Assembly (NCBI RefSeq): GCF_947387555.1
Contig: NZ_CANDNZ010000015.1
Location: forward strand, 1 to 64,000
Direction: 5' to 3'
Length of the DNA stretch: 64,000 nucleotides
Origin: Thalassomonas sp. RHCl1
GTDB lineage: Bacteria > Pseudomonadota > Gammaproteobacteria > Enterobacterales > Alteromonadaceae
Below, piece after piece: positions 2,969 to 4,899 of this stretch. A program made the position numbers and the translations under genes. The notes under the pieces are model-generated. The model ran no database searches. It was given only the letters and a program-made list of their open reading frames with translations, and had not been told where the DNA came from. Position 1 is the stretch's first letter. The number at the start of each line of letters is the position of its first letter.

Positions 2969-3538
2969 TTATTCGAATTCTGACAGATCACTGTTATCGA
3001 ACTTATCCCAAAGCTCGTCTTCAGATGACGTTTTCTGAGCGGTTTCGCTCTCTTCGTCTTCATCATCCCAGCCGAGTAATTCACGCAATTGCTGGTGACG
3101 GGTCATTTTTTCATTGAAGTAGTCGACTTCGGCTTCGCTCAGGGCGACCTCGTCTTCCTGCTTTTCGAGAATGCTCTGTAATTGCGCATCTTCTTCAATG
3201 GCATATAGCTCCTGCTCTAACGAGGTATCCGGCTCTACGTCACGTATTGCGGCGATAGGCGAGGCCTGGACCCTGGCTTTCTTCGGCTGTTTCGTCATCG
3301 GCTGGGCCGGTTTACCTAAGGCTATCGGGGTTTTGCTGCCCAGGCGCGGATCTTTTTTGATGCCTGACCCCTGAGAGCCTTTAGTTTTCTTTTTCGCTTC
3401 AGTCTGGCGGTTGCCCGGCTTGTTGCCGGTTTGCTTCTTGGGTTTTTTATCGCTGCGCAGCGCTGTTTTGGTTTTGTCGTCTTTGACTATGCCGATGGAG
3501 CCGACTCCCGGCTTTCTGGATTTCTTTTTACGAGTCAT
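2969..3538 (-). CDS. yihI: Der GTPase-activating protein YihI
   Basis: A 189-residue protein with a very basic N-terminus (MTRKKKSRKPG), a low-complexity K/Q/P-rich stretch and an acidic C-terminal part containing the YihI core (RHQQLRELLGWDDED). In E. coli YihI activates GTP hydrolysis by Der (EngA) and so modulates late 50S ribosome assembly. As in E. coli it lies close to hemN, here with two extra genes between, and beside a Csr-type RNA. It is slightly longer than the E. coli protein (169). Confidence 0.92.
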   Translation of the reverse strand: MTRKKKSRKPGVGSIGIVKDDKTKTALRSDKKPKKQTGNKPGNRQTEAKKKTKGSQGSGIKKDPRLGSKTPIALGKPAQPMTKQPKKARVQASPIAAIRDVEPDTSLEQELYAIEEDAQLQSILEKQEDEVALSEAEVDYFNEKMTRHQQLRELLGWDDEDEESETAQKTSSEDELWDKFDNSDLSEFE

Positions 3539-3614
3539 AGGGAAAATAATCTTGCTACTGTTTAAGGCGGGTATTTTACGACATTAACAGCCAATAGAAA
3601 AATAAAAGCGTATA

Positions 3615-3646
3615 AAGAAAAAAAGCGATGGCCATTGCCATCGCTT
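3615..3646 (-). terminator. terminator of the Csr-type RNA
   Basis: A perfect 10-base inverted repeat, AAGCGATGGC (3623-3632) and GCCATCGCTT (3637-3646), with a four-base loop. Read leftward it is followed by TTTTTTTCTTT. It lies upstream of yihI, so it must end a transcript other than yihI; this is what first pointed to an RNA gene in the gap. Confidence 0.88.
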
Positions 3647-3990
3647 CTGGAGATTATCATTGCAGGCTTTGCCTACAACTTTTAGTTTCCGATATAACCG
3701 GTTTCCCAACCTATTAGCACAGTCCCTGTAATCTCTGAACGCTTCCTATTTGTTTTTAATGCTTCCGTACTATATTTTTTTATTCTTGGTCTTCCTGACG
3801 CCTTATTGGCTGTCCATAAGGTCCTCTTGAACCTAAAAAGTACATCATCCTGATATTGAATAAACCATCCTTATTCAAAAATATTTATTCAAAATGCGAA
3901 TAAACGATTGCTTTCCTTGCATATCAGTTCCCTGTTTTTATTATTTGCTGCCTGAGCAGCTGTTCAATACTTTACCCGAGATGAGCTCGG
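3615..3990 (-). ncRNA. probable CsrB/CsrC-family regulatory RNA
   Basis: The minus strand of this protein-free gap carries ten GGA motifs between 3870 and 3688, mostly about 20 bases apart, and two more at 3929-3931 and 3914-3916. Several are in AGGA/AGGAA context and near small hairpins. It ends in a strong terminator. Repeated GGA in hairpin loops is the mark of CsrB/CsrC RNAs, which sequester the translational regulator CsrA. E. coli csrC lies beside yihI, as here. A possible -10 (TATAAC, 3997-4002) would give a start near 3990 and a length of about 375, like E. coli CsrB. The 5' end is approximate. No convincing reading frame exists. Confidence 0.72.
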
Positions 3991-4129
3991 CAGCAAGTTA
4001 TAAATGAAACTTTTTTAACGTTTTTTTATCGCGAAAATCTTACTTGCCTGTTTTTACTGGTAAAAAAAATGTAAATAAATCTTTCGTGAATTAGAAAAAA
4101 ATCCGTTAATGGCGAATGTCTCACAAACT

Positions 4130-4261: not shown

Positions 4262-4293
4262 AAAAAAACCAGCAAATGGCTTGCTGGTTTTTT
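4262..4293. terminator. bidirectional terminator after the VOC gene
   Basis: AACCAGCAA (4267-4275) / TTGCTGGTT (4281-4289), with an A run on the left and a T run on the right, so it can stop transcription in both directions. It terminates the leftward VOC gene that ends at 4369. Confidence 0.85.
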
Positions 4294-4368
4294 CAAAAAT
4301 ATCACTCGAAAATCGGCTGAATTTCAGGTCATTTTTAAATGTAACCCAAATGTAGCCGCATCCGGCTG

Positions 4369-4899
4369 TTAATCCTGTTCATGTAACCAGGCAGCGTGCC
4401 TGGGAGCGCGTTTGGTTTGTGACCATTCTTCTACCATTAGCGGTGCCACACGCTTGAGTTCGGCAAACTGCTCGGGTGTGCCGGTATTGGCGGCAAGCTC
4501 CAGGCGGTGACCGTTGGGATCGAAGAAATAGATAGATTTAAACACGCCGTGGTTTACCGGCCCCAGTACTTCTACGCCTTTGCCTTCAAGCTCTTCCTTG
4601 GCGGCAACCAGGGCATCAAGATCTTCCACTTCCAGGGCGATGTGTTGCACCCAGGTCGGGGTGTTTTCGTCACGGCCCATTTTCGGAGAGTTGGGGATCT
4701 CGAAAAATGCCAGGACATTGCCCATGCCGGCATCTAAGAAGGTATGCATATAAGGATCCGGCGCTTTCGTTGACGGTACTTCGTTTTCCGCGATAGCAAC
4801 GGTAAGCTCCATGTTTAACTTGTCTTTATACCATTCAACCGTTTCTTTGGTGTCGATGCAGCGGTAGGCCACATGATGAAAGCGTTTTAAATTAATCAT
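4369..4899 (-). CDS. VOC-family (glyoxalase/dioxygenase fold) protein
   Basis: A 176-residue protein with two beta-alpha-beta-beta-beta units of the vicinal oxygen chelate fold. Likely metal ligands are His8 or His9 (FHHVAY), a His in WVQHIALEV and a Glu in HRLELAAN. The family includes glyoxalase I, ring-cleavage dioxygenases and fosfomycin-resistance enzymes. The tail with PRHAAWLHEQD is shared by uncharacterised members annotated as glyoxalase. The gene stands alone with its own terminator. The substrate cannot be told from sequence. Confidence 0.85.
   Translation of the reverse strand: MINLKRFHHVAYRCIDTKETVEWYKDKLNMELTVAIAENEVPSTKAPDPYMHTFLDAGMGNVLAFFEIPNSPKMGRDENTPTWVQHIALEVEDLDALVAAKEELEGKGVEVLGPVNHGVFKSIYFFDPNGHRLELAANTGTPEQFAELKRVAPLMVEEWSQTKRAPRHAAWLHEQD

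Follow-up and report, generated by a model that had tools for sequence, protein, structure and literature searches.

A probable csrC gene upstream of yihI in Thalassomonas sp. RHCl1, recognised by its locus, promoter and conserved GGA motifs

Csr RNAs govern how metabolism, motility and biofilm formation are balanced. Such RNAs were reportedly predicted across many gammaproteobacteria by Kulkarni et al. (2006), whose list may already include some of those considered here. One of the species compared below, Alteromonas macleodii Te101, is presumably a related marine bacterium. The repeats of the UvrY/SirA site, located by ChIP-exo, are TGTGAGACATTGCCGATA in E. coli csrC and TGTGAGACATTGACCATT in Salmonella csrC (PMC4682653). 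Pf3 of Pseudoalteromonas fuliginea is a sparse Csr RNA with 9 GGA that binds CsrA in EMSA and in vivo, and a partial match to it was reported in Thalassotalea, as was glycogen staining of laboratory E. coli expressing Pf3 (PMC11882849). In A. macleodii Te101, the RNAs Aln1a-c were predicted to titrate CsrA, all three arising from one 404-nt intergenic region (PMC5864184). The csrB-group RNAs of Vibrio, including CsrB, CsrC and CsrD of V. cholerae, are Csr RNAs that depend on VarA (UvrY) (PMC6262261, PMC6550530), and an RNA named 'CsrC' in S. oneidensis, located between mutM and SO_4727, is transcribed independently of UvrY (PMC3171408). Our literature search covered titles, the beginnings of abstracts and few subscription papers; among the matches listed, no description of the present RNA in Colwelliaceae was found.

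The window analysed here consists of positions 1 to 64,000 of contig NZ_CANDNZ010000015.1 of Thalassomonas sp. RHCl1, and all coordinates are window positions. Next to yihI there is very probably an unannotated copy of CsrC, the small RNA thought to titrate CsrA. An earlier note had delimited the stretch as 3615-3990; the RNA itself probably runs from near 3961, and 3990-3962 belongs to the promoter. The elements of the locus are as follows.

4369..4899, minus strand: glyoxalase-superfamily gene (Pfam PF00903), upstream of the RNA; same place in many relatives (tblastn to related loci)
4108..4125, minus strand: predicted UvrY-binding site TGTGAGACATTCGCCATT, with its 5' end at about -164 relative to the predicted start
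3992..3997, minus strand: -35-like element CTTGCT, 17 bases before the -10; CTTG followed by C or T at a fixed distance in all 28 aligned rows
3969..3974, minus strand: -10 element TAAAGT within GTAAAGTA, identical to E. coli csrC
3617..3961, minus strand: predicted csrC-type small RNA gene, about 345 nt; start predicted by analogy with the -10-to-start spacing in E. coli csrC, end by the terminator
3618..3648, minus strand: intrinsic terminator of the RNA, a 12-pair stem (3648-3621) and a T tract, both recurring in the ortholog alignment
3573..3580, minus strand: CGTAAAAT, possible -10 of a promoter of yihI itself, suggested by the alignment, where it recurs in many relatives
2969..3538, minus strand: yihI (Der GTPase activator; Pfam PF04220, E 4.7e-27), the syntenic partner

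Downstream on the minus strand, yihI is followed by a DUF2489 gene, a DksA-like gene and hemN. On the opposite side of the RNA, the gene that the earlier note had called ysxC is in fact the glyoxalase-superfamily gene. Between it and the RNA, an inverted repeat with flanking A and T runs was observed at 4262-4297; this is probably the terminator of the glyoxalase gene and would leave the RNA gene insulated in both directions. As had been proposed, the strong terminator of the RNA cannot end yihI, since it lies upstream of the yihI start at 3538. The claim that the stretch has no reading frame also stands: the longest ORF within the transcript has 32 aa, and the best ORFs in the 28 orthologs, with 14-54 aa, do not share their positions. 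A TTG-start frame of 41 aa at 3709-3584 extends beyond the terminator.

In the three genus mates, the 421 bases surrounding the site have 93-99% identity, and DNA-level matches were obtained in 45 of the family's 196 genomes. The loci of the best 30 of 52 DNA matches were extracted, and one more locus from the genus brought the set to 31. In 29 of these 31, yihI lies downstream on the same strand, the exceptions being a locus that ends before yihI (L014) and a stray short match (L011). The alignment of the yihI-side gap, suggested in the earlier note, was made from 28 loci, leaving out the stray match and the two loci that lack a near-exact -10 (L032 and L035). GGA conservation was counted on the 23 rows outside the genus, where L018 was omitted as near-identical to L017. 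It was found that GGA triplets are retained at a mean of 0.79, compared with 0.24 for 283 non-overlapping other triplets, and none of 20,000 random draws in a permutation test reached as high a value. The GGA motifs are thus the conserved part of the RNA, in agreement with the Csr-type reading proposed earlier, and GGA is the best conserved among the triplet types that occur at least 4 times. Three of the 12 GGA are kept in all 23 relatives, while the one at 3746 is kept in a fraction of only 0.13.

The rows of the alignment were chosen by a near-exact -10 match, which 2 of the 30 ortholog loci lack. About 150 nt upstream, at a near-fixed distance, TGTAAGACATT occurs in 28 of 28 aligned orthologs, in 24 of them exactly and in the other 4 with a single mismatch, and GACCATT or something close to it often comes next. 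This box corresponds to the UvrY site of E. coli and Salmonella csrC. The 18-nt palindrome TGTAAGN6CTTACA was also tried as a UvrY box and was rejected, its best matches in the 28 upstream regions having 2-5 mismatches. By the alignment, the conserved upstream element is a predicted csrC-type half-symmetric site rather than this palindrome. In the E. coli control that we fetched, the UvrY site is at -168, the -10 is GTAAAGTA, and csrC is followed by yihI and then hemN, which agrees with the statement of the earlier note that E. coli csrC lies beside yihI. The locus, the UvrY box and the -10 are therefore common to both organisms, and the conserved position asserted for the window RNA holds.

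On the minus strand, 12 GGA motifs were counted, at 3931, 3916, 3870, 3850, 3824, 3815, 3795, 3766, 3746, 3725, 3706 and 3690. This count reproduces the ten motifs from 3870 downward and two upstream of the earlier note, and their spacing, 9-46 bases, is mostly about 20 as had been described; the opposite strand has 1 GGA. When compared with 2000 dinucleotide shuffles, the count of 12 exceeds a mean of 8.0 (p 0.039), and mononucleotide shuffles give a mean of 7.0 (p 0.022), while ANGGA, with six occurrences, has a dinucleotide shuffle p of 0.052. An equal raw GGA count is found in other 300-base stretches of the window. Since the strand is rich in G and A, the GGA count alone is weak against chance, and raw GGA density (shuffle p 0.02-0.05) was rejected as proof.

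Of 100 shuffles, none folds as well as the 395-nt strand with its terminator (z -4.45). A 5' hairpin and seven small hairpins that could present a GGA were recognised as follows.

3946..3961, minus strand: 5' hairpin AGCTGC-TCAG-GCAGCA, from the consensus fold of 28 sequences; relatives have GCTAC/GTAGC for GCTGC/GCAGC
3925..3934, minus strand: GGA hairpin CAG-GGAA-CTG
3909..3921, minus strand: GGA hairpin TGC-AAGGAAA-GCA
3858..3876, minus strand: GGA hairpin GAATAA-GGATGG-TTTATTC, its GGA in 23 of 23 relatives outside the genus
3844..3854, minus strand: GGA hairpin ATC-AGGAT-GAT, GGA in 23 of 23, with a covarying outer pair (A-U, C-G, U-A)
3789..3799, minus strand: GGA hairpin GTC-AGGAA-GAC, from ortholog comparison and covariation count
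3719..3729, minus strand: GGA hairpin ACAG-GGA-CTGT, GGA in 23 of 23
3700..3711, minus strand: GGA hairpin GGTT-GGGA-AACC, with a covarying stem in relatives

In the window RNA, 11 of the 12 GGA could be placed in loops with 3 or more closing pairs, compared with 6.6 in shuffles (p 0.003). This shuffle test covered 8 of the 28 orthologs and the excess is clear in some of them only: in the seven others p is 0.10-0.56, and when at least 4 pairs are demanded, p is 0.003-0.03 in 4 of 8 and 0.057-0.45 in the remaining 4, the window among the latter. Five small hairpins, of which four carry GGA in the loop, were counted over 26 sequences, and 85% of the cells pair. They score 0.205 for covariation; shuffles give 0.132, with none of 500 reaching the observed score, and sliding the structure yields no more than 0.119. 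Covarying pairs (7) and further pair types (22) in these five hairpins are no more numerous than in shuffles. We take the covariation to support the predicted GGA hairpins.

On the other hand, the search with the CsrB and CsrC covariance models that the earlier note had suggested as a check fails at the window site. Rfam RF00084 (CsrC) scores 10.5 bits there, where 61 are needed, and matches the terminator only; over the whole genome it gives nothing at E <= 0.001. Rfam RF00018 (CsrB, cut-off 71 bits) has no match at the locus and six elsewhere, the best with 69 bits. We account for this failure by the narrowness of the models, since RF00084 also stays below its cut-off in 12 of 13 loci that share the promoter and the locus (13 of the 59 described below were given to it), from Serratia, Ewingella, Vibrio-type genomes, Ferrimonas and Colwelliaceae. 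It passes in Cedecea alone, and therefore its silence does not show that csrC is absent.

Another covariance model, R1, was built of the RNA body from 26 loci and has only 8 base pairs. It matches all 23 Colwelliaceae-type scan loci and both Ferrimonas loci (62 and 56 bits), and four Vibrio-type scan loci weakly (28-30 bits, E 0.02-0.05). Some of the Colwelliaceae-type loci apparently come from the source genomes of R1, as their equal scores indicate, so those 23 are no independent test; the Ferrimonas and Vibrio loci are independent. An RNA body recognisably homologous to E. coli CsrC was looked for with R1 in the 31 enterobacterial loci given, E. coli included, and was found in none, a result that tests the reach of the model as much as homology. 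By these comparisons the body apparently fades with distance while the switch and the locus stay. Since R1 misses E. coli csrC, orthology with it rests on locus and promoter, namely the position and strand of yihI and a UvrY site about 160 nt upstream together with GTAAAGTA. On this basis the window RNA is most likely orthologous to E. coli csrC, the same ancestral gene in the same place, and not merely similar to it.

Within the family, R1 matches occur in 64 of 196 genomes and 22 of 52 genera. Of the 64 genomes, 54 were assessed for yihI: in 53 the match precedes yihI on the same strand, and in the other (G088) tblastn over about 2 kb found no yihI. When genomes were drawn evenly across the order, 14 of 295 gave a match, seven of them in one genus of a family (f6) that we guess to be Shewanella. 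Rfam CsrC scores 24 and 20 bits at the right place in two of three f6 loci, under its cut-off, and in all three the box and -10 were not convincingly found. Among 18 weaker R1-match loci, the box and -10 are present within 3 mismatches in 4, with 4 mismatches and no GGA-rich sequel in another 4, and not at all in 10. In 20 yihI regions from genomes without an R1 match, two (L106 and L114) have the box and -10 with 3 mismatches, which 0 of 20 shuffles equalled; five have matches that 1-3 of 20 shuffles equalled, and 13 have none. In 10 of these 20 regions, fewer than 200 nt precede yihI. The box thus appears to fade in distant relatives. A claim of family-wide presence was rejected, given the 64 of 196 genomes with R1 and a signature that is missing or unrecognisable in many genera.

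We also scanned a collection of one genome per species (84,980 species by its own description) for the box and -10 alone, ignoring the RNA body. The scan returned 59 loci: 30 enterobacterial (including Serratia and Ewingella), 23 from Colwellia, Cognaticolwellia, Thalassotalea and related bins, 4 Vibrio-type and 2 from Ferrimonas. Five of the 59, with less than 700 nt of downstream sequence, were not counted for yihI; in 52 of the 54 assessable loci, yihI follows on the same strand, no more than 1500 nt away. The two loci without it are Vibrio stretches only 1123 and 1231 nt long, which is roughly the point at which yihI begins in the remaining Vibrio-type loci (1094 and 1288). Over the following 350 nt, or as much of it as was available, each of the 59 loci has 8-22 GGA and 0-3 TCC. 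In Vibrio-type (L164, L121), Ferrimonas (L123, L138) and f6 (L094) loci, the RNA and yihI are separated by an open frame of 211-225 aa, the whole interval being about 1 kb; in L094 this frame is a methyltransferase gene by Pfam. As a side observation, the csrC neighbourhood is retained in the window although this gene is absent there.

The genome also carries the other parts of the Csr system. There is one copy of csrA. The best UvrY match has 70% identity, in an open frame of 214 residues with receiver and LuxR-type domains and with uvrC next to it (the match of 217 residues includes one internal stop counted by the search tool), and the best BarA match covers residues 3-636 of the 770-residue E. 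coli stretch used, with 48% identity. Three CsrB-type RNAs were found elsewhere, all under the Rfam CsrB cut-off of 71 bits.

L001, at G000:C4:155532: CsrB-type RNA, Rfam CsrB 69 bits, 19 GGA in 333 nt
L002, at G000:C3:401421: CsrB-type RNA, Rfam CsrB 64 bits, 20 GGA in 348 nt
L003, at G000:C4:438858: CsrB-type RNA, Rfam CsrB 30 bits (weak), 15 GGA in 270 nt

UvrY palindromes within 1 mismatch lie upstream of L001 and L002, while the best one for L003 has 3 mismatches; by eye, L003 has its 3' end in common with the other two. Therefore, the window RNA is not the one Csr RNA of the organism, as it had been called, but would be its fourth. In three genus mates, Rfam CsrB matches 5, 2 and 2 places, and there is no match in 11 of the 30 genomes searched.

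The three further weak CsrB-model matches in this genome are tandem repeats. Arrays of a 49-nt unit were observed at G000:C1:360921-361177 (L005), G000:C7:264215-264478 (L004), G000:C14:14469-14631 (L006), G000:C14:106910-107044 and G000:C1:1165126, with about four copies each in L004 and L005. The unit carries small hairpins with GGA in the loop, TACAGGATGTA and TTCATGGATGAA, and this motif pair occurs 9 times in the genome against 0 for a reversed control. Judged by sequence, these weakly scoring arrays look like repeated CsrA sites.

Taken as a whole, we consider it highly probable that the minus strand from about 3961 to 3617 is CsrC, an untranslated, UvrY-activated CsrA sponge of about 345 nt. 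The support comes from the sequence, in the form of a conserved locus, promoter and box, conserved GGA motifs, covarying hairpins, a terminator, and homologues of csrA, uvrY and barA; conserved GGA, a promoter signature and terminator with no conserved frame, and a genome that has CsrA and BarA-UvrY also mark the functional class. Following established Csr biology, phosphorylated UvrY would bind the box at 4125-4108 and turn on the promoter. The predicted transcript would offer several GGA motifs in hairpin loops and single-stranded stretches, where CsrA dimers would bind and be drawn away from their mRNA targets. It would work alongside the three CsrB-type RNAs, as one of four sponges.

Other explanations were weighed against this one. 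The stretch could be the 5' leader of the yihI mRNA, through which CsrA would regulate yihI in cis; it is directly upstream of yihI on the same strand, and CsrA is generally known to act often on mRNA leaders. However, a strong terminator and then the -10-like CGTAAAAT stand between the RNA and yihI, and the 211-225 aa frame intervenes at L164, L121, L123, L138 and L094, so we regard a leader as very unlikely. The same small chance is given to a conserved small RNA of some other type, such as a base-pairing one, in which GGA would be incidental. Some tracts other than GGA are indeed well kept, such as UGUGCUAAU following the ACAGGGACUGU hairpin in the alignment, but GGA is the triplet type that is conserved best, and the promoter has a UvrY site of the csrC type.

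Slightly less probable again is a csrB copy relocated to the side of yihI. The genome does hold three CsrB-type RNAs, and duplication and relocation of csrB were described in Vibrio (PMC6262261); nevertheless, the CsrB model has no match at the window locus, and in its promoter and locus the RNA agrees with csrC across several families. Chance clustering of GGA in a G/A-rich spacer would agree with the raw density, for which p is merely 0.02-0.05 in shuffles, but conservation, covariation and promoter architecture speak against it; we treat it as practically negligible and consider it already refuted by the GGA retention and the UvrY box.

With the window RNA read as csrC, we lean towards the view that csrC is one ancient, vertically inherited gene which stood beside yihI before Enterobacteriaceae, Vibrionaceae, Ferrimonas and Colwelliaceae split, its switch and -10 kept near letter-for-letter while the body turned over around the GGA motifs. 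If this is true, csrB and csrC would be old, separately maintained sponges. The conserved non-GGA tracts of the Colwelliaceae RNA, for example GUGCUAAU, hint at a possible second duty beyond CsrA titration. The csrC of Colwelliaceae passes no Rfam cut-off. As the same switch is found at the same position in relatives of E. coli and in marine Colwellia-type bacteria, the window RNA is an expected yet overlooked one. Where covariance models fail, the signature of promoter and yihI provides a simple annotation of csrC that is independent of the body, and it makes the age of csrC and the parallel maintenance of csrB and csrC testable. For this genome, the count is corrected from one to four predicted Csr RNAs.

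Among the known systems, E. coli and Salmonella csrC share with the window the position upstream of yihI on the same strand, the -10 GTAAAGTA and an intrinsic terminator. They also share the UvrY site TGTGAGACATT, which is at -168 in E. coli and at about -164 in the window. Both RNAs are rich in GGA and untranslated, with 14 GGA in 246 nt in E. coli and 12 in 345 nt in the longer window RNA. Unlike E. coli csrC, the window RNA has a body too diverged for the Rfam CsrC model, and R1 in turn does not reach E. coli csrC; the far-side gene is yihA in E. coli and the glyoxalase gene in the window. The CsrB RNAs (RF00018, including L001-L003) resemble the window RNA as GGA-rich RNAs, with UvrY palindromes within 1 mismatch at two of these three. 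In contrast to the window RNA, L001-L003 lie at other loci and have denser GGA, and the CsrB model is blind to the window RNA. The four Vibrio-type loci carry the promoter pattern of the window.

In L094, from the presumed Shewanella family, the RNA lies between a cytochrome c gene and the methyltransferase gene; yihI comes next, and the far side is occupied by a GTPase gene. This neighbourhood differs from that of the S. oneidensis 'CsrC', and the proposal that the latter is the same gene is not supported. Three genomes that we assume to be Pseudoalteromonas have 12, 9 and 15 sense-strand GGA upstream of yihI. The Aln1a-c RNAs are likened to the window RNA by class, as predicted CsrA-titrating RNAs (PMC5864184). 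Pf3, whose flanking genes are given by locus tags only, is perhaps the yihI-linked RNA (PMC11882849). The nearest published relatives of the window RNA are E. coli csrC and, perhaps, Pf3 of P. fuliginea.
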